The notes under the pieces: generated by a model | Seen by the model: the letters and a program-made list of their open reading frames with translations, nothing else | What the model was told of the DNA's origin: nothing | The model's database searches: none | Shown here: piece after piece, positions 3,599-63,600 of the stretch | Layout: each line of letters opens with the position of its first letter | Numbering within the stretch: position 1 is the stretch's first letter | Position numbers and translations under genes: made by a program | Assembly: GCF_017833035.1 (NCBI RefSeq) | Contig: NZ_JAFIBM010000001.1 | Coordinates: forward strand, 496,001-560,000 | Source of the DNA: Frigoribacterium sp. PvP032 | Lineage (GTDB): Bacteria; Actinomycetota; Actinomycetes; Actinomycetales; Microbacteriaceae | Length of the DNA: 64,000 bases | Direction of reading: 5' to 3'

Positions 3599-5941
3599 CT
3601 ACTGCGGGATGGTGGCCCCGAAGCGGGAGGGGAGCGTGCCCTGGTGCGTGCTGCGGAGCTCGTCGAGCGAGACCGTGAAGACGTCCTGGATCTCGAGCGA
3701 CTGCGACGAGGCGTCCGTCACGCCGATGCGCGCGACCGGGTAGCCCCGGCCCTCGCAGAGGCCGCGGAACTTGACGTCGTCCTCACGGGGCACCGACACG
3801 ACCACGCGACCGGTCGACTCCGTGAAGAGCGTCGCGGCGACGTCGAGGCCGTCGCGCTCGAGCAGCTCGCCCAGGTACACGCGGGCACCGACGCCGAAGC
3901 GCAGCACCATCTCGGCCAGGGCCTGCGCCAGGCCGCCGTCGCTGAGGTCGTGTGCGGCGGCGATCAGCGACTGGTCGGCACCCGCGGCGAGCAGGCCCGC
4001 GAGCTGCTTCTCGCCCGCCAGGTCGACGGCAGGCGGACGTCCGCCGAGGTGGTCGTGCACGGTGCCGGCCCAGGCCGACCCGTCGAGCTCCAAGGAGGAG
4101 GTGCCGAGCAGGTAGATGTTGTCGCCGTCGTCCTGCCAGCCGGAGGGCACGCGCTTCGCGACGTCCTGGATGACGCCGAGCACGCCGACCACAGGGGTCG
4201 GGAAGATCGGCTTCGTGCCCGTCTGGTTGTAGAACGAGACGTTCCCGCCCGTGACGGGGATCTCGAGCTCGAGGCATGCGTCGGACAGGCCCTCGACGGC
4301 CTGGGAGAACTGCCACATGACCTCAGGGTCCTCCGGGCTGCCGAAGTTGAGGCAGTCGGTGACGGCGGCCGGCACGGCACCCGTGACGGCGACGTTGCGG
4401 TAGGCCTCGGCGAGGGCCAGGCGGGCGCCCTGCTTCGGGTCGAGCTGGCACCAGCGGCCGTTGGCGTCCGTCGCGATCGCGAAGCCGAGCCCTGACTCCT
4501 CGTCGACGCGGACCATGCCGCCGTCGTCGGGGAAGCTGAGGGCCGTGTTGCCGAGCACGTACGTGTCGTACTGGTTCGTGACCCAGCTCTTGTCGGCCAG
4601 GTTGGGAGAGCCGAGCAGCTGCAGGAACTGGGCCCGCACCTCCTCGGGGGCAGTCGGACGCGGCAGGGTCGCGGCCGTGTCGGCCTGCAGGGCGTCGATC
4701 CAGGACGGGTAGGCGACGGGGCGCTCGTAGACGGGGCCGTCGACGGCGACCGTGCGCGGGTCGACGTTGACGATCTCTTCGCCGTGCCAGTTGATGACCA
4801 GCCGGCCGGTGTCGGTGACCTCGCCGAGCACGCTCGTCTCGACGTCCCACTTGGCGGTGACGGCGAGGAAGGCGTCGAGCTTGTCAGGGCTGACGACCGC
4901 CATCATCCGCTCCTGGCTCTCGCTCATCAGGATCTCTTCTGCGGTGAGCGAGGGGTCGCGGAGCAGCACGTCGTCGAGCTCGATGAACATGCCGCCGTCG
5001 CCGTTCGAGGCCAGCTCGGAGGTGGCGCAGCTGATGCCGGCTGCCCCCAGGTCTTGGATGCCCTCGACCAGCTCGCCGCGGAAAAGCTCGAGGCAGCACT
5101 CGATGAGCACCTTCTCGGCGAACGGGTCGCCGACCTGCACCGAGGGGCGCTTCGTCGGGCCGCCCGACGAGAACGTGTCGGAGGCGAGGATGGAGGCGCC
5201 GCCGATGCCGTCGCCGCCGGTGCGGGCCCCGAAGAGGACGACCTTGTTGCCGACGCCCTTCGCGTTCGCGAGGTGCAGGTCCTCGTGGCGGAGGACGCCG
5301 ACCGCGAGCGCGTTGACCAGCGGGTTGCCCTGGTAGACCGCGTCGAAGTACGTCTCGCCGCCGATGTTCGGCAGGCCGAGGCAGTTCGCGTAGAAGCTGA
5401 TGCCCTGCACGACGCCGTCGACGACTCGCTGGGTGTCGGGGGCGTCGATCGCGCCGAAGCGCAGCTGGTCCATCACCGCGACGGGGCGGGCGCCCATCGA
5501 GATGATGTCGCGGACGATGCCGCCGACGCCGGTCGCGGCGCCCTGGAACGGCTCGATGTAGCTGGGGTGGTTGTGGGACTCGACCTTGAAGGTCACCGCC
5601 CAGCCGCCTCCTACGTCGACGACGCCGGCGTTCTCGCCCATGCCGACCATCAGGTTCTTGGTCATCGCCGGCGAGACCTTCTGGCCGAACTGGCGGAGGT
5701 AGATCTTGCTCGACTTGTAGGAGCAGTGCTCGCTCCACATCACCGAGTACATCGCGAGCTCGCCGCTCGTGGGGCGGCGGCCCAGGATCTCGCGGATCTG
5801 CGCGTACTCGTCGGCCTTGAGCCCGAGCGCCTCGTAGGGCTGGTGCTTGTCGGGCGTCGCGGCCGCGTCGGCCGTGGTGTCGGGCTTGGGGCCCTCGGGA
5901 CGGACGTCGATCAGCTCGGCGCGGTCGTTCTCGGTGCTCAC
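3599..5941 (-). CDS. purL: Phosphoribosylformylglycinamidine synthase, large subunit
   Basis: PurL catalyses step four of purine synthesis, FGAR to FGAM, using ATP and ammonia delivered by PurQ. At 780 residues it is the small (Gram-positive/archaeal) type that needs separate PurS and PurQ, both present just upstream. The conserved ATP/substrate segment with [17 protein letters not shown] and the paired AIRS-like halves are evident. The GTG start overlaps the purQ stop by 4 nt, giving the coupled order purS-purQ-purL. A strong hairpin follows the stop. Confidence 0.97.
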
Positions 5942-56632: not shown

Positions 56633-57880
56633 ATGACGACGACGGAGCCGGTGCTGGGCGAGTCCGGGCGTGAGCTGGTGCGCGAGGTGCTGATCCACGG
56701 GCCGATCGCGCGGGCGGAGCTCGGACGCCGGCTGGGGCTGTCGCCGGCGAGCCTGACGCGGCTGAGCAAGCCGTTCTTGGATCGCGGACTCTTCGTCGAG
56801 GGAGCCGTCGAGCTCGCCGGAGCCGTCGGCCGCCCTGCCAAGCCGCTCGACGTGCGCGTCGACCTGCAGTGCTTCGTCGGCATCAAGCTGACCGGCGACC
56901 AGGCGCTCGGCGTGCTGACCGACCTGCGGGCCAAGACGCTGGGCGAGCACGTCGCCGACCTCGCCGGGCACTCGCCCGAGGAGGTGGTGGAGGCGCTGGC
57001 CGCGGTGGTGGAGGCGCTCGCCGGGTCGGGCGGTGACGGTCGCGCTGTCGGGGGTGGTGTTTCTGCTGAGGCTGATCCGTCACGTGACGGATCAACCGAG
57101 GCGAGCGTGGCCGGCGCTGGTGCTGGTGGTGTCGCCGAGCTCGCGGGTGTCGGGGTGAGCATCGGCGGCAAGGTGACCGGGCAACAGGTGGTGCTGCGCG
57201 CGCCTTTCCTCGAGTGGCGTGAGGTGGACCTCGGCGGGATGCTGTCGCGGCGGCTCGGGCTGCCGGTCGTGGTCGAGAACGACGTGGTGGCGCTGACGGA
57301 AGCGGAGCGGTGGTTCGGCCTCGGGCGGGGGATCGACGACTTCGCGGTGGTGACGACGGGGGCCGGTGTCGGCTACGGGCTGGTGATCCACGGGAGGCAG
57401 GTCATCACGCCCGACACGGGTCTCGGGCTCGGAGGGCACTTCCCCCTCGATCCCACTGGTCCGATCTGTGCCGACGGCCACCGGGGCTGTTCGACGGCGA
57501 TGCTGTCGACGACGAGCATGTGCGCCTCGGCGGCCGTCGGTCTCGGTCGGCTCGTCAGCTACGAGGAGCTGCTGGCGCTCGCCGCCTCGGGCAATGCCGT
57601 CGCGGTGCAGGTCGTCGGCACGGCCGGCCGGTCGCTCGGGCGCATGATCGCCGCGGTGGCGAACCTCACGATGGTCGGGACCGTGGTGCTCTCGGGCGAG
57701 GGCATCGGGCTGGTCGACGTCCCCGTCGCGGCGTCGGAGATGCGCGCCGGCATCGCCGCCGACCGAGACCCCGACGCGTCGGAGGTGCGCGTCCTCACCG
57801 GGGACGCCGACTTCGGCGCCTGGGCGCGTGGTGCTGCCGCGGTCGCTGTGCAGGCGCGGATCGGGGCCTTGGGGGCGTGA
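56633..57880 (+). CDS. ROK-family transcriptional regulator
   Basis: A sugar-responsive repressor of about 415 residues. The N terminus is a winged helix (ARAELGRRLGLSPASLTRLSK); the C-terminal ROK domain has GVSIGGKV, the FAVVTTGAGVGYGLV segment and PICADGHRGC. The usual CxCGxxGC zinc cluster has only two of its cysteines here. An Ala/Gly-rich insert near residue 150 contains the palindrome GATCCGTCACGTGACGGATC. I use ATG 56633; earlier in-frame starts are possible. It is divergent from and probably controls the alpha-galactoside genes. Confidence 0.85.
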   Translation: MTTTEPVLGESGRELVREVLIHGPIARAELGRRLGLSPASLTRLSKPFLDRGLFVEGAVELAGAVGRPAKPLDVRVDLQCFVGIKLTGDQALGVLTDLRAKTLGEHVADLAGHSPEEVVEALAAVVEALAGSGGDGRAVGGGVSAEADPSRDGSTEASVAGAGAGGVAELAGVGVSIGGKVTGQQVVLRAPFLEWREVDLGGMLSRRLGLPVVVENDVVALTEAERWFGLGRGIDDFAVVTTGAGVGYGLVIHGRQVITPDTGLGLGGHFPLDPTGPICADGHRGCSTAMLSTTSMCASAAVGLGRLVSYEELLALAASGNAVAVQVVGTAGRSLGRMIAAVANLTMVGTVVLSGEGIGLVDVPVAASEMRAGIAADRDPDASEVRVLTGDADFGAWARGAAAVAVQARIGALGA

Positions 57881-57998
57881 ACAGAACCCCTCGAGCTAGC
57901 AAAGCGCCTAAGCCTAGATTTGAGCGTGAGCCAGAGGTGTGCTCAGTTGTCGCCACTAATCAAGTTAAGGAAAAGCAATTATCCAATAAATCTGCTAT

Positions 57999-58607
57999 CT
58001 ACGGTCGCTCGACATACTTATTTTGACTGTTGAATCTACCGATCAGCTGTGCTGCGGTAGCCCATCCCTCTCCCGTCAAGCGGGCTGTACCGTCAAGATC
58101 TTGCCAGGTCGTGGGATGGTCAATCCAAGACTGAATGTAGGCCCGTCGAATGTCGACGAGTACATCCAGCAGGTGATAGTCGCTGGGGGCAGACTCGTGC
58201 GGAACTTCGGTCATTATTGACTCAATAAAGATAACCAGATCAAGACCGTTTTCCTGACGAGACGCTGCCGCTCGTGAATCGACCTCGGCTCGCAAATCGT
58301 CGGATCGCTCTGAACTTTCCATGTGGCCAGTCCAGACGGGTTGTCCTCGTATTTCTTCCACAAGACGATCCGACCATCGAGACACTAGCGTCCCAAACGT
58401 AGCCCGATTATCTCGCTCGTCAGCGGTATTTCGACGGGTTTGCAGGTTGTGATCCCTACTGGTGATATTGCTCGCCACCTTGTTGCTGCTGAGAGCCACG
58501 GCGATAGCACCCACGCCGACGGCGATGGTGCCGACAGCTCCGAGCACTGGTACGCCGATGTCGCTCCACCACTGGTAGGAGAAGACTGTAATCCAGTCGG
58601 TATTCAC
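57999..58607 (-). CDS. Single-pass membrane protein beside the reverse transcriptase
   Basis: A 202-residue protein with one N-terminal membrane segment (about 15-40, VPVLGAVGTIAVGVGAIAVAL) and a soluble, charged C-terminal domain rich in Arg/Asp/Glu. I do not recognise the family. It begins 61 nt after the RT stop on the same strand and lies in the AT-richer island. Its base composition is unlike the neighbouring sugar genes. I infer it is part of the RT cassette, perhaps as an effector, but nothing in its own sequence shows this. Confidence 0.7.
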   Translation of the reverse strand: MNTDWITVFSYQWWSDIGVPVLGAVGTIAVGVGAIAVALSSNKVASNITSRDHNLQTRRNTADERDNRATFGTLVSRWSDRLVEEIRGQPVWTGHMESSERSDDLRAEVDSRAAASRQENGLDLVIFIESIMTEVPHESAPSDYHLLDVLVDIRRAYIQSWIDHPTTWQDLDGTARLTGEGWATAAQLIGRFNSQNKYVERP

Positions 58608-58668
58608 GTTCTGCCATCGATTCTTTACCCAAATTGAGCAGGTATATCATGGAAAATATGTTCGTCGC

Positions 58669-60054
58669 TCAGTTATAGCCAGCGCCTTCAGTGTCCTGCT
58701 CGAGATCACGCACCTCGCGACGAACTCGAGCGGCAAATATGCGGTCTACGTCTAGGTCGTTTGTAAGCCTCGCCGCCGAGACGCCAAACACGTTCATCAG
58801 ACATTGCCGTTTGTCATCCACGACCCACGCGTCGAAATTGGGAATGTAGCCAGTTACATCTCCATGGCGACTTGCGAGCAGCCGGTATGCCTTCGTGAAG
58901 CTCTTAAACTGTACATCTGTGACTGCAAACCTTTTTGACCGGTCCTCGATAAGCCAGTCTAAATGTGCGAGCAGTTGCTGATGTCTTATCTGAGAAAAAT
59001 ACACAAGCCATCCCACGGCGTGGCTGTCGAAACGGCAGCCAGTAACAACCAAGTCTACGTGCCACTGGAGTCGCCTCTTGGCGACCTCAACGCGAGCGGC
59101 ATCGCCTCCCGCGCGCTGGCGCGCGTATTTGTAAGCGGTGAAGGCGCGCGCCAATCGCCCCTCAATTCTACTTACAGACCCAGACCTCACCGTCACTCGA
59201 GGCCACACAAACTTGTAGCCCAGGTATTCAAAGCTGTCAGCGATTCGGCCAACACTAGACTTATTGGCCCCCAGCTTGACAGGATGAATCTTCACCCCGG
59301 CCAATGCCATGAGTTGCTTAATGTCCATTACGAGCTTATTTGTACTGCGTCGTGGTAGCAATATGAGGATGTCATCGACGAAGCGAAAGTAGGCCAGGCC
59401 ATCACGCTTCCGCAAACTGCTATCCAGGTGCGCCAGGCTGAGTTCGGCTATGCCATTGGATATTGCTAGTCCCTGAGGGACACCGGACGTCGACGGAGAA
59501 TCCGCCTTTCGACCCTCTGGTGCAGCCGATTGTTCGACGGCTCGCATGAACAAGTCGACAATGGGAGGTGATGCTATTTTTCTCGTAAGTGAAGCTCGGA
59601 CCCACTCGTGGGACAGTGTTGGGTAAAAATTGATGATGTCGATTTTTATGAAATAGCGGTACTTGCCCGACGACAGGCTTGCGAGCACGTCAGCAATGAC
59701 ATCTTGTGCAAGAGGTGCCGATGATTCGGGTGCCACGGCCTGCAGGTATTCGGCCATACATCGCAGAACGACCCGGTCCTGAAAGCGAGGCCGGGCGATT
59801 TCACGGGGAGCTTTTCCTCGGCCCTTGCTCTTAAGTAGAAGATCGTACGTGCTAAAACGGTATCTATGGCCTAAGAGAGAAGAATTAACCCATCTAAGAT
59901 TGCGATCTAGTTGGCTTCCCCATTTCTCGGCTGTCACACCGTCCCGGGAAGCTAGAGCGTTCTTCTCTTCCAAGCGCCTAAAAGCTTTTTCAAGTTGCAC
60001 TTTCCGAACTGCGGACTTCCAGGCTCTTTCAGACGCCCGAGACTGGCTAACCAC
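58669..60054 (-). CDS. Reverse transcriptase of the defence/unknown-group type
   Basis: A 461-residue RNA-directed DNA polymerase. RT motifs in order: motif A FIKIDIINFYP (Asp139), motif B GVPQGLAISN (191-200), motif C AYFRFVDDILIL with catalytic Asp227/Asp228, motif D GVKIHPVKLG, then EYLGYKF. About 150 residues follow the thumb. The VDD catalytic box and GVPQG form resemble bacterial abortive-infection and unknown-group RTs more than group II intron RTs, and no maturase or endonuclease domain is evident. It overlaps the upstream SLATT-like gene by 8 nt, so the two are coupled. No retron-type repeat could be identified. Confidence 0.9.
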   Translation of the reverse strand: MVSQSRASERAWKSAVRKVQLEKAFRRLEEKNALASRDGVTAEKWGSQLDRNLRWVNSSLLGHRYRFSTYDLLLKSKGRGKAPREIARPRFQDRVVLRCMAEYLQAVAPESSAPLAQDVIADVLASLSSGKYRYFIKIDIINFYPTLSHEWVRASLTRKIASPPIVDLFMRAVEQSAAPEGRKADSPSTSGVPQGLAISNGIAELSLAHLDSSLRKRDGLAYFRFVDDILILLPRRSTNKLVMDIKQLMALAGVKIHPVKLGANKSSVGRIADSFEYLGYKFVWPRVTVRSGSVSRIEGRLARAFTAYKYARQRAGGDAARVEVAKRRLQWHVDLVVTGCRFDSHAVGWLVYFSQIRHQQLLAHLDWLIEDRSKRFAVTDVQFKSFTKAYRLLASRHGDVTGYIPNFDAWVVDDKRQCLMNVFGVSAARLTNDLDVDRIFAARVRREVRDLEQDTEGAGYN

Positions 60055-60685
60055 GAATCGCCCACAAGGCTATAGGGGTCACGGAGAGCACTGATGCAGC
60101 AATTAGTACGGCCGGAAGGGAAGACAGTGCCGTACTCCAGAATCGGTCGAGCTGCCGGCGCGCCATCTCTGTTGGAGTCACGTAGTTAACGAGGGGTGTC
60201 TCGATATTTGTCCCCTGCTTCCGGATGCTCTTCCACTGAACGGCCCAGGCGAAGTCACCTGTGGAATGGTTTGCTGTTCTGTCCAAAAGCAGTTGGTACT
60301 CCGCGTTAAGGCGCCTGAATGAACGCCTACGGCGACGTCCGGAATTGTGCGATGCATCTGCGAAGGCGGCGTCAACGGCTATTCGCTGAAAATCGCGGTA
60401 CGCCTCGAATCCGAGAGTGGATTTCTCGCTGTAACCAGCGCTGCCCAGCACGAGGGAAGCAGTCAATGTCAGCACGCCGACGGCGCACCATAGGAAGGGG
60501 CCTCTGTCGCCATAGAGGCTGGGTTCTTGCAGGAGTGCAATACTTACCAATGTTGAGGCGAGGCTCAATGAGATAAGAGCAGCAGTCCAGGAGCGTCCGC
60601 GAGACTGTAGGCGTTTCGCGTAGCGGAGGCGCGCCGCGTAGTTCCTCTCCGAACGCCAGGCAAACTGGCTTAATTGATCGTTCAT
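60047..60685 (-). CDS. SLATT-like membrane protein (two-transmembrane effector type)
   Basis: A 212-residue membrane protein. An N-terminal helix (WRSERNYAARLRYAKRLQSRG) precedes two hydrophobic segments (about 33-53 and 62-84); after a soluble part with EYQLLLDRTANHSTGDF a third hydrophobic segment lies near the C terminus (about 186-208). This plan and the Y-LL-NH-D pattern match SLATT effector domains, some of which are known to be linked to reverse transcriptases. I take ATG 60685; a TTG at 60745 would add a basic stretch. SLATT domains are thought to form membrane pores in defence. Confidence 0.75.
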   Translation of the reverse strand: MNDQLSQFAWRSERNYAARLRYAKRLQSRGRSWTAALISLSLASTLVSIALLQEPSLYGDRGPFLWCAVGVLTLTASLVLGSAGYSEKSTLGFEAYRDFQRIAVDAAFADASHNSGRRRRRSFRRLNAEYQLLLDRTANHSTGDFAWAVQWKSIRKQGTNIETPLVNYVTPTEMARRQLDRFWSTALSSLPAVLIAASVLSVTPIALWAIRG

Positions 60686-61118
60686 GCGATGCTTCGGCCG
60701 CCTTCGATTTCCGCTGCGCGACAAGTCGCGCGTTCCAGTGCTCAACGCCCGTAGGCTCAGCCGGCGAGCCAGCTCGCAATGAGAAGCACTTCGACGAGGT
60801 CGAAGTCCCCCTCATGCATCTTTCACATCACCCCGTCGCCAAAGCCGCACGACTGAGGTGGCGGCCGAAGCTTTATCAACTTAGCAGATCAAGTGATTTA
60901 CTTGAGGTTCCGTCGTTCTCAAAGGCCGGCTCCCCTTAGAGGACGCCGACACGGAAAACCGTGCTCGGGCCCGCCGCCAAATCGCCGTCAAAACTCCACC
61001 ACCTACCCGCCCACAGGAAACAGCACTGAGTACGGTACCCCCAGCCTCTGACCCTGTCACCGGACCCACCACCCGCCGACGCATCATCGGCCGCGTAAAA
61101 ATCATCGCCAACCGGGCC
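60686..61118. other. Divergent control region of the RT cassette
   Basis: This 433-bp gap separates the leftward SLATT-RT genes from the rightward membrane/HEPN pair. It contains the inverted repeats CTTCGAC-gag-GTCGAAG (60788-60804) and TCAAGT-gattt-ACTTGA (60889-60905), which could be operators or parts of a structured RNA. The actual RT ncRNA, if there is one, cannot be recognised by eye. No further gene is supported. Confidence 0.5.
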
Positions 61119-61604
61119 GTGACCCCGGCCGCGATCGTTGCCGTCGTGAGCGTGGCCGTCCCGGTGCTGGTGGGCCTAATCACGGCTGCCGTCCCCGAGA
61201 AATCCACCCTCACGAAAACGGCCAACAGTGCCGCGTCGCTGCTCGGGCTGCTGACACTGCCGGCACTGGGGCTGTTGCCCATCATGCGGCGTCTGTTCCC
61301 TCCCCCCATCGCCGAGCAGTCCGAGGCTCTCGCGCGGGTGGACCGTGACCCCTGGCACACGGTCGTCCGGGTGGTCAGGCCCGCCCAGCACGCACGCACC
61401 GGCACGAAAGCGTTCGTGCAGTTGCGAGACGGCACACAGTTCGCCGCCTGGTTCCCGGGACGACGTGTCGCCAGGAATCAGGTGTTCGCCGTTCAAGGCC
61501 GAACCGGGTACGGCGAGTACCGCCACCAGTCCGTGTTCTACGTCAACGCGGTGACCCACCAGTTCTCGTTCAAGTCCTGGAACCGTGCACGCCGGCTGAG
61601 ATGA
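61119..61604 (+). CDS. Two-segment membrane protein coupled to the HEPN gene
   Basis: A 161-residue protein. Two hydrophobic segments (about 3-22 and 41-55) are followed by a soluble part of about 100 residues with VQLRDGTQFAAWFPGR. The GTG at 61119 is the only likely start, but an upstream basic stretch in frame (RRRIIGRVKIIANR) suggests the true N terminus may be further left. The stop overlaps the HEPN gene's ATG (ATGA), so both are co-translated. I do not recognise a family. Confidence 0.6.
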   Translation: MTPAAIVAVVSVAVPVLVGLITAAVPEKSTLTKTANSAASLLGLLTLPALGLLPIMRRLFPPPIAEQSEALARVDRDPWHTVVRVVRPAQHARTGTKAFVQLRDGTQFAAWFPGRRVARNQVFAVQGRTGYGEYRHQSVFYVNAVTHQFSFKSWNRARRLR

Positions 61605-63184
61605 CCTTGAGGCGGCATCATGGCGGGGTGCTGCTCGAACCGAATGACCTCGCCAACCTCCTCGCCGTGCGGAACCTGCGCAACCTCGCCGCCTCCCACG
61701 CCCGCATACCCGGTCGAGCTCAGCACGACACCGCCGTTCTCCTGCTCGACGCAGCCATCGAACGTGCGGTCTTCACTGCATGCGGGTTCAAGCAGATCGA
61801 CCTGGGTGTCAAAGACACCTTGGAGTCAGCGCTCTCGAAACTCGGCAACACCGGCTTCACCACCCCGGCAGGGCTCTCCACTGACCGCATGCGACTCCAC
61901 AAGGCGCGAAACGGCGTTCAGCACTCCGGATTGAGTGTCGACCCGGGGTCCGTCCCGACGTGGGTGGTGACGACCGACAAGTTCATCACGCACGTCGTCA
62001 CCTACGCCTACGGCGTGGACATCGATGACGTGCGACTGTCCACCGCCATCCGCGACCCAGAGATCAAGGCTCACCTTGACGCAGCCGAGGCCCGCCTCGA
62101 CGCCGACGACACCACAGCCGCTGTCAGCGCCATCTCCGAGGCATACAAGATCGCCCGGAAGACGTGGAATCGGTTCGTCGAATCGAGCCAGATGTTCCTC
62201 CGTCATCGAACAAGGCCCTACAGCGCATCACTCAGCGGCGACGACGGGGACCAGATCAAGGCGCTCCAGCAGGTGACGTTCGTCACGTCGATTGCACCCG
62301 ACCCTGCAGAAGCCATCTGGTTCTTGGCCGCGCTTCGAGAGCAAACCCTGCTGACGACGGAGGAGGCACGTCGTGCTCTTGCCTTCGCCTTCACGTTCGC
62401 GACGGCCGTGGAAGCAAGCCCTGCCGTTCGCCGGGAGAACAGGCGAAATGTCCGCGACCAGCAGGCGCGTCACGTCAGGGCTGACCCGGCCGCGCACACA
62501 CGGCTTGGGCCTTTCTCGCTGAACCCTGACGGGTGGCGAGGGATCGCTGAAATTACCATTACCTTGATCGATGTTCCCGGCGCAGACGAATTCAACGGCT
62601 GGAGTCGGCTTCTCAACGACCTCATCAACCCACGCGGAAACCCCAGCGAGCACATTTACGTCAATGACGACGGAACGATCCGCTTCTACGCTGACTCCGA
62701 CACCGAGAGCACCCTCACACGGATCGAAGAGGCCGTCGCTGCCGTTGATGGCACGTTCGAGACGCGCAAGGCCGAGGAAGCCGCGGCCACACACGCGCGC
62801 GAGACCGGACTCCGTCAGGCTCAAGACCGGCTGAACGAGATGATGGACGCCCTGCCCGAATGGATACGCCTTTACGCAATCGAGGGGGGGCACTCCGATG
62901 CGGGCCCGGAAGTCGTGCTGAACCTCACTCCCCCGCTCCGGGGCAATCTGCCATACAGGGAGCTCGCTGACGCTATTAGCGGCAGTGGAGACGTCGGCCT
63001 GTCCAACACCTCACACGGCCTCACCATCCAAACCGACCTCGACGACATCCCTGAACTGCTCACCTCGCTAGTCCCAGCCCTAGAAGCCCTCTTGGCCGAA
63101 GCGCAAGCCAAGGAAGCAGACGACGCCGCGGCGGTAGACGCCCTCGAGCAGAAGCTCCTCAAGCACGGGCTGCGTCCGCACTGA
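61601..63184 (+). CDS. HEPN-motif protein, putative RNase/defence protein
   Basis: A 527-residue protein I cannot place in a named family. Near residue 103-108 it has LHKARNGVQHSG, the R-x4-H motif of HEPN ribonucleases. After a helical N-terminal half comes a second part rich in polar residues, with FYADSDTESTLTRIEEAVAAVDG and a glutamate/alanine-rich tail. It is translationally coupled to a small membrane protein and lies next to an RT cassette, a neighbourhood typical of defence islands. Catalysis is inferred from the motif only. Confidence 0.6.
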   Translation: MTLRRHHGGVLLEPNDLANLLAVRNLRNLAASHARIPGRAQHDTAVLLLDAAIERAVFTACGFKQIDLGVKDTLESALSKLGNTGFTTPAGLSTDRMRLHKARNGVQHSGLSVDPGSVPTWVVTTDKFITHVVTYAYGVDIDDVRLSTAIRDPEIKAHLDAAEARLDADDTTAAVSAISEAYKIARKTWNRFVESSQMFLRHRTRPYSASLSGDDGDQIKALQQVTFVTSIAPDPAEAIWFLAALREQTLLTTEEARRALAFAFTFATAVEASPAVRRENRRNVRDQQARHVRADPAAHTRLGPFSLNPDGWRGIAEITITLIDVPGADEFNGWSRLLNDLINPRGNPSEHIYVNDDGTIRFYADSDTESTLTRIEEAVAAVDGTFETRKAEEAAATHARETGLRQAQDRLNEMMDALPEWIRLYAIEGGHSDAGPEVVLNLTPPLRGNLPYRELADAISGSGDVGLSNTSHGLTIQTDLDDIPELLTSLVPALEALLAEAQAKEADDAAAVDALEQKLLKHGLRPH

Positions 63185-63205
63185 CCCACCAGCAGAAATA
63201 GCAGC

Positions 63206-63232
63206 GGCGCCTTCCCTGGTGGGGAAGGCGCC
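63206..63232 (+). terminator. Hairpin terminator after the HEPN gene
   Basis: A perfect 11-bp stem (GGCGCCTTCCC and its complement) with loop TGGTG lies 21 nt after the stop. It closes the rightward transcript of the island. Confidence 0.8.
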
Positions 63233-63249
63233 ATCACTGCAGGCGACTA

Positions 63250-63600
63250 CTAAGCAGACGTGATCCAGGTGGACCACTGTGCGGGCGGAGTCTGCAGCGC
63301 CTGCTCCCGGTACGTGCAGAACCCCTCGGCCTTGCGGAGCCGATCGGTGGCTAGGGCAAAGCTCATGCCACCGCAGCGGCCCCATGCCGTTGTCGCGCTC
63401 GTCGAAGCACACCAGCCAGGCCGTGTGCAGGGCGGAGTACTCCTCCACCAACGCACCGTGCGATGCCCAGCAACACTCCGAGGGTTTGCTCCTAACGACA
63501 GTGAGGGTGGTCGCGCTCTGGAGCCACTCTCCGTCGCTCGAGAGCGGCACTCGCACACGAATCCGCCCCCACCCGAGTTGACTCGTACTGCCCCCATCTC
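63250..63600 (-). pseudogene. Possible frameshifted gene remnant
   Basis: On the minus strand two adjacent frames look protein-like and would join near 63360: upstream GRIRVRVPLSSDGEWLQ through FDERDNGMGPLRWHE, then in another frame ALATDRLRKAEGFCTYREQ down to a stop at 63250. A single-base shift would join them. I do not recognise the product. This is a pattern-based guess, and the region from 63233 to 63679 otherwise shows no gene. Confidence 0.3.

Follow-up and report, generated by a model that had tools for sequence, protein, structure and literature searches.

The 64,000-nucleotide stretch of Frigoribacterium sp. PvP032 DNA analyzed here (the window) carries on its minus strand a cassette of three genes, which encode a SLATT-type membrane protein, a reverse transcriptase (RT), and a small third protein. 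Judged from its sequence, this locus is very probably a DRT10 (UG17) antiphage system operating by a repeat-DNA mechanism, with the third gene as a passenger or accessory. This reading is based on the RT_UG17 score of the RT, its pairing with a SLATT gene, an RNA predicted upstream of the latter, a Ser or Tyr at the RT C-terminus, and a variable chromosomal site that holds conflict or candidate defense genes in relatives. The components of DRT10 that are readable from sequence are all present, save a convincing A-B-A' repeat in the template. The parts of the cassette are located as follows:

60690–60873, minus strand: predicted DRT10-type noncoding RNA (stem statistics, fold, co-variation, held-out model)
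60047–60685, minus strand: gene of the SLATT protein, 212 residues, a likely membrane effector (PADLOC, Pfam, predicted spans)
58669–60054, minus strand: gene of the UG17/DRT10 RT, 461 residues (PADLOC RT_UG17, alignment, tree)
57999–58607, minus strand: third gene (P0003), 202 residues, an orphan with one predicted membrane span and a codon make-up like that of the RT gene

The SLATT gene starts with the ATG at 60685 and stops at 60047, and the RT gene starts with a GTG at 60054 and stops at 58669; the two share 8 nucleotides. The three reading frames thus lie at the places and on the strand given by a preliminary description of this DNA, which had also noted this overlap and a VDD active site. 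The latter is present as FRFVDD, with D227 and D228 as the active-site residues. Membrane spans of the SLATT protein were predicted at residues 34–52, 64–82, and 182–200. The cassette had further been described as more AT-rich than its neighbors, and counts over 500 bases at a time confirmed a lower GC content (52–58%) than on its left (69–77% at 54–57.5 kilobases (kb)) and right sides (62–69% at 61–64 kb).

UG17 systems were named DRT10 in the Tang et al. 2025 preprint (PMC12632851), according to which three E. coli systems, described as consisting of RNA, SLATT, and RT, defend against phage. They require RT catalysis, the SLATT protein, and a noncoding RNA upstream of the SLATT gene. A Ser or Tyr at the RT C-terminus (S456/Y444) serves as the primer for DNA synthesis, and the template lies in the loop that follows the final stem-loop, where an A-B-A' pattern leads to tandem repeats (PMC12632851).

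Classification of the RT and SLATT Proteins

Among the PADLOC models, RT_UG17 gave 399 bits for the RT, followed by 110 bits for the next UG model and 51 bits for Drt9. RTs outside UG17 (loci L060, L057, and L028) reached 104–190 bits on the RT_UG17 model, of which L028 is a generic RT with 296 bits to the RT model and 190 to UG17. The SLATT protein scored 145 bits with PADLOC RTasSLATT, the RT-associated type, which was matched by all ten SLATT proteins scanned. It also passed Pfam SLATT_5 (55.7 bits, cut-off 29.5) and narrowly failed NCBIfam SLATT_5 (55.7 bits versus a cut-off of 60). A tree was constructed from 23 RTs, two of them group II RTs, in which 9 of 20 inner branches were left open and several branches are long. 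The closest partner of the window row was that of Leifsonia sp. 71-9 (support 100/100), and 18 UG17-like rows, among them the window, clustered apart from five other RTs (99/100). A weaker UG17-like RT (L027) lies inside the same cluster, so that the 17 labeled rows are not strictly on one side of a branch. On these profiles and this tree, the RT is of class UG17 and the SLATT protein of the RT-associated type, which makes DRT10 the class of the system. A defense RT with a SLATT effector had been proposed in the preliminary description; this proposal is supported by the Pfam and PADLOC matches of the SLATT protein and by the placement of the RT with UG17-like and not group II rows, and the class that it had left unnamed can now be given.

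Similar RTs were counted at E 1e-50 or better in overlapping draws of genomes, each of which includes the window's own genome (one genome, G419, is in two draws). Matches were obtained in 4 of 398 genomes of the family, 5 of 396 of the order, 3 of 394 of the class, and 3 of 296 of the phylum, one of the last three (L028) not being UG17. Within the genus, the window's own genome was the only one of 16 with a UG17 RT (0 of 15 others). Seven plasmid records carry such an RT at E 1e-30, two of which are Vibrio nigripulchritudo plasmids with equal scores, represented here by one of the pair. No relative was confirmed in viral contigs. Partial RT matches at 22–24% identity came from 11 phage records.

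A SLATT gene was found upstream of the RT at all 15 other UG17 loci with a complete upstream sequence, so the co-occurrence of SLATT and RT that the preliminary description had counted on is retained elsewhere. Twelve of these were recognized by similarity to the window's SLATT protein, including a weak case (L018, E 0.004) and one in two overlapping pieces (L023), and three by record annotation; L027, L028, and L021, whose contig ends before the SLATT gene, were left out of this count. SLATT_5 is reported to accompany 82% of UG17 RTs in complete genomes (PMC8934634).

The locus of Leifsonia sp. 71-9 (L001) resembles the window in its RT (54–55% identical), its SLATT protein (51%), and the same 8-nucleotide gene overlap, and the RNAs of the two are 64–69% identical over aligned bases (98/152 and 121/176). 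It differs in having no third gene; its next gene encodes another membrane protein with seven predicted spans, which appeared acyltransferase-like by eye.

Three further loci deserve mention. On the Rhodococcus rhodochrous plasmid pGD02.2.2 (L013), a SLATT gene at 4315–4959 upstream of a UG17 RT (RTasSLATT, 131 bits) is absent from the gene table of the record, which is incomplete. The two SLATT pieces at 5338–5987 of L023 (G411, a draft of many contigs) are in different frames, owing to a sequencing error or a broken gene. The distant UG17-like RT at 1015–2889 of L027 (G1242) scores 281 bits and ends with Ser-Ser; no SLATT neighbor was seen beside it, and it adjoins open reading frames judged by eye to be phosphatase-like and exonuclease-like.

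Predicted RNA, Candidate Template Loops, and Candidate Priming Residue

The preliminary description had named two gaps in which a structured RNA might be sought, and one of them, at 60.7–61.1 kb, contains the predicted RNA. In its minimum-energy fold, positions 60871–60860 pair with 60702–60691 to give a closing stem of 12 base pairs, inside which five hairpin loops are formed, and the stem ends 5 nucleotides before the SLATT ATG. An unconstrained fold of the segment retained this stem. When the complete stem was left out, the fold energy of the stretch was moderately unusual (z −2.3, with 5 of 200 shuffles as low). Structure and co-variation both point to a structured RNA directly upstream of the SLATT gene, in which a large closing stem encloses small hairpins. 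Loci L022 (5263–5417) and L026 (7940–8106) present a variant of this arrangement: the 3' arm of their closing stem holds a GTG, possibly the SLATT start, just after a sequence like a ribosome-binding site (AAGGAG/GGAGGAG), and the RNA gene and coding start may overlap there.

For each of 16 loci, the top-scoring long-range stem close to the start of the SLATT gene was compared with those of 100 shuffles. Its score was unmatched by any shuffle in 11 loci, the window included; in the other five, the shuffles as good numbered 2 (L020), 4 (L017), 11 (L018), 22 (L025), and 61 (L016). Co-variation was evaluated on an alignment of nine loci, for which RNAalifold also predicted the closing stem; a seven-row alignment (L020 misaligned) and a ten-row alignment (L014 misaligned at the 3' end) were set aside. 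Nine of 13 pairs of the closing stem have changed on both sides, and all 114 cells are paired (100%), compared with 19–45% for slid versions of the stem. The full pairing is favored because the alignment rows were cut at a stem already found, so the paired changes are the stronger evidence. Identity over aligned bases between the window and the seven loci beyond L001 is 39–49%.

An RNA model was further built from six loci, with the window and L001 held out. It placed the RNA correctly in L001 (18.8 bits, E 0.012) and L014 (14.8 bits, E 0.11), and with default filters found no RNA in L013, L015–L018, L020, and L025. In an unfiltered search of 801 bases, 60690–60873 of the minus strand ranked highest, with 19.4 bits and an E of 3.5e-5 relative to those bases alone, and the opposite strand gave 8.1 bits. 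A nine-locus model gave 27.6 bits on the reverse strand of L001, with much of the score from the stem. The held-out model is taken as support for the RNA, short of proof. Rfam gave only ribosomal and transfer RNA at the gathering score in the window, and nothing up to E 1 in 57800–61200.

The 3' part of the predicted RNA contains the following elements:

60732–60746, minus strand: candidate template loop 1, matching in position the template loop that follows the fourth hairpin in relatives
60716–60731, minus strand: last hairpin, GCGCGAC-TT-GTCGCGC, as read from the sequences
60703–60715, minus strand: candidate template loop 2, which separates the last hairpin from the closing stem (A-B-A' repeat, junction sequences)

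The extra hairpin and loop 2 follow loop 1 in both the window and L001, where the last hairpin is GCGCTAG-TTG-CTAGCGC, with paired changes relative to the window. From its sequence, loop 2 may hold the ribosome-binding region of the SLATT gene as well. The repeat DNA expected would be GATTTC or ATTTCCG if loop 2 is the template, and GTGCTCA or CAGTGCTC if it is loop 1. The A-B-A' repeats of L001 are 3 nucleotides in loop 1 (35% of shuffles as good) and 4 in loop 2 (5.5%). Its loop 2 runs into GGAGG, maybe a ribosome-binding site, which could alone explain the CGGA repeat.

Several of these results weigh against a DRT10-type RNA and template. L016, L018, and L025 have no closing stem above chance among the 16 loci, and the fold energy of L001 is not unusual (z −0.9, 38 of 200 shuffles as low). 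With default filters, the held-out model missed the window RNA, also when the window's genome was searched, and gave two chance-level matches elsewhere in the window. Reverse strands of two training loci reached 19–22 bits, so much of the score comes from the closing stem. The A-B-A' repeats of the window are 2 nucleotides in loop 1 (93% of shuffles as good) and 3 in loop 2 (38%), and the two loops partly pair with each other in the minimum-energy fold. The best of 14 loops tested was at 5.5% of shuffles, and the ten loops besides those of the window and L001 were at 17–99.8%. On sequence grounds, the window has two candidate template loops, in neither of which the repeat exceeds chance.

Nineteen RTs were aligned at their C-termini. 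With L028 set aside, all 18 UG17-like RTs, that of the window among them, have Ser or Tyr at one of their final two positions. It is second-last in both the window (Y460) and L001. Y460, at the published priming position, is the candidate priming residue.

Chromosomal Site of the Cassette

Eight same-genus stretches were fetched around the left-hand neighboring gene, and two of them delimit a variable segment:

57881–63551, no strand assigned: variable segment with the cassette and two other genes (two same-genus alignments)

In these two, alignment with the window extends to 57880 (G218) and 57875 (G167) and resumes at 63552, with other DNA between. The remaining six match the left side only, except that L052 has two further points of similarity beginning at 65.6 kb. 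No empty site was present among the same-genus stretches, and the two junctions share no 9-nucleotide word. The proteins at the same site were scanned in G218 (five) and G167 (six). G218 (L049, 9752–15994) holds there a low-GC operon of five genes with GAP1-N1, DO-GTPase1, DO-GTPase2, GASH, and a calcineurin-like phosphoesterase, domains known from GTPase conflict systems. G167 gave one PADLOC candidate, PDC-M32A (128 bits), and one transposase-like protein. In these alignments, the site 57881–63551 probably behaves as a defense hotspot.

The other two genes of the segment overlap on the plus strand (61119–61604 and 61601–63184). At E 0.01 neither Pfam nor PADLOC assigned them to a family, no PHROG matched them below E 0.3, and all of their NCBIfam matches are below the cut-off. 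These right-hand neighbors had been regarded as ordinary genes, a view that their want of a recognized family does not bear out. The second gave no match at E 1e-10 in any of the 15 other genomes of the genus. Both are possibly other defense or mobile cargo.

The Third Gene and Other Explanations of the Locus

The third gene is on the same strand as the RT gene and starts 61 nucleotides past its stop. The GC contents of its three codon positions (0.61/0.47/0.58) resemble those of the RT gene (0.61/0.44/0.56), which suggests a real gene that probably arrived with the RT. The preliminary description had called its product a membrane protein, which holds to the extent of one span predicted at residues 21–39 by a hydropathy scan. 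With a threshold of E 1, none of PADLOC, Pfam, and NCBIfam gave a match for it; the PDB gave none either, and its best PHROGs match was at E 0.038. A single-sequence AlphaFold model was too poor to read (mean predicted local distance difference test score of 48). A similarity search detected no such gene at the 18 other RT loci, L001 included, and no counterpart was seen by eye among the larger downstream open reading frames at 16 of these 18. Neither 148 other related genomes nor plasmid and phage records at E 0.01 contained a homologue (one chance-level plasmid match, E 8), and peptide patterns retrieved nothing from viral contigs. The preliminary description had counted this gene into the system, which is not supported by a search that found it at none of the 18 other RT loci; from these searches, it is probably an accessory or unrelated cargo of the same insertion.

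The strongest competing explanation, to which we give a minor share of the probability, counts the third gene as a functional fourth component, which would be either a partner anchored in the membrane or a restraint on SLATT, in a lineage-specific system of RNA, SLATT, RT, and P0003. The strand, spacing, base and codon pattern, and single predicted span of this gene are in its favor. It is opposed by the missing homologues in other RT loci (even the closest, L001), genomes, plasmids, and phages, and by the description of the E. coli systems as RNA, SLATT, and RT (PMC12632851).

Somewhat less plausible is a reading in which, in this apparently actinobacterial branch, the telomerase-like template RNA doubles as a translation switch for SLATT and the orphan single-span protein is a lineage-specific addition. 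On this reading, the closing stem, which ends 5 nucleotides before the ATG here and in L022 and L026 takes in a GTG that may be the start, would overlie or adjoin the site of ribosome binding or the start codon of the SLATT gene, so that a folded RNA bound by the RT would keep the effector unmade. If the RNA–protein particle were lost during infection, SLATT would be translated.

It is also improbable that the cassette is the nonfunctional remnant of a DRT10 system. Its DNA looks foreign, and no UG17 RT was found in the other 15 genomes of the genus, so its vertical maintenance is not demonstrated; however, its frames are open, the active-site residues and near-terminal Tyr are present, and the RNA stem is perfect, with paired changes between loci. 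The remaining explanation, that the RT is the maturase of a group II intron or derives from a decayed retroelement and lies beside the SLATT gene by coincidence, was rejected as highly improbable, since its NCBIfam group_II_RT_mat match (105.8 bits) is far under the curated cut-off of 300 and its GIIM match (12.4 bits, E 0.16) under that of 23, no intron RNA was found with Rfam in 57800–61200, the tree separates it from group II rows (99/100), and its UG17 score and conserved SLATT pairing point elsewhere, even though a group II RT and other RTs are its best matches among solved structures.

Proposed Mechanism and Significance

For a DRT10 system at this locus, we propose that transcription would run leftward from about 60.87 kb and that the first ~180 nucleotides would fold into a structured RNA bound by the RT, as suggested by homology. 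Following the E. coli precedent, the RT would use its own C-terminal region as the primer for DNA, probably at Tyr460 in this case, and copy a short RNA loop repeatedly into protein-linked, single-stranded tandem-repeat DNA. This DNA may act on the SLATT membrane protein, perhaps keeping it inactive. Infection might then lower the DNA, upon which SLATT would damage the membrane and the infected cell would stop supporting the phage. These last steps are unproven possibilities from the DRT10 authors, who proposed that the repeat DNA modulates SLATT, reported lower complementary DNA (cDNA) on infection, and considered that it may restrain SLATT (PMC12632851). The preliminary description had the cDNA trigger the effector, which stands as one of two readings beside the alternative that cDNA restrains SLATT and falls on infection (PMC12632851). 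The third gene would have come with the same insertion as a passenger or an accessory that other DRT10 systems do without.

The window shares with E. coli DRT10 a UG17 RT, an adjoining SLATT gene upstream of it, a Ser or Tyr near the RT C-terminus, and, upstream of the SLATT gene, a structured RNA that combines a large closing stem with small hairpins. It differs in the length of the RNA (~180 versus 137 nucleotides), in the closing stem ending 5 nucleotides before the SLATT start, in an additional hairpin that separates the closing stem from the homologous template loop, in the orphan third gene, and in a template repeat that is not identifiable with confidence. DRT9 (UG28) is reported to have likewise a UG RT, an upstream RNA, protein-primed DNA synthesis, and sometimes a SLATT partner, but it makes poly-dA from a poly-U template (PMC12483538), and the window RT scores 399 bits for UG17 versus 51 for Drt9.

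Among the titles listed for UG17 and DRT10, none concerned an actinobacterial example, and the main text of the DRT10 paper does not contain "Actino" or "Streptomyces", though its supplementary tables may hold such members (PMC12632851). DRT10 is a recent telomerase-like immune system that has been tested in E. coli; the present locus would add to it a high-GC lineage, apparently actinobacterial by its base composition and nearest named relative, in which the RNA takes a form of its own. Its co-varying RNA sequences are supplied here and are directly testable. The abutment of the RNA on the SLATT start offers a simple possible link for how repeat DNA controls SLATT, and the third gene provides a further lead, as does the insertion site shared with same-genus genomes.

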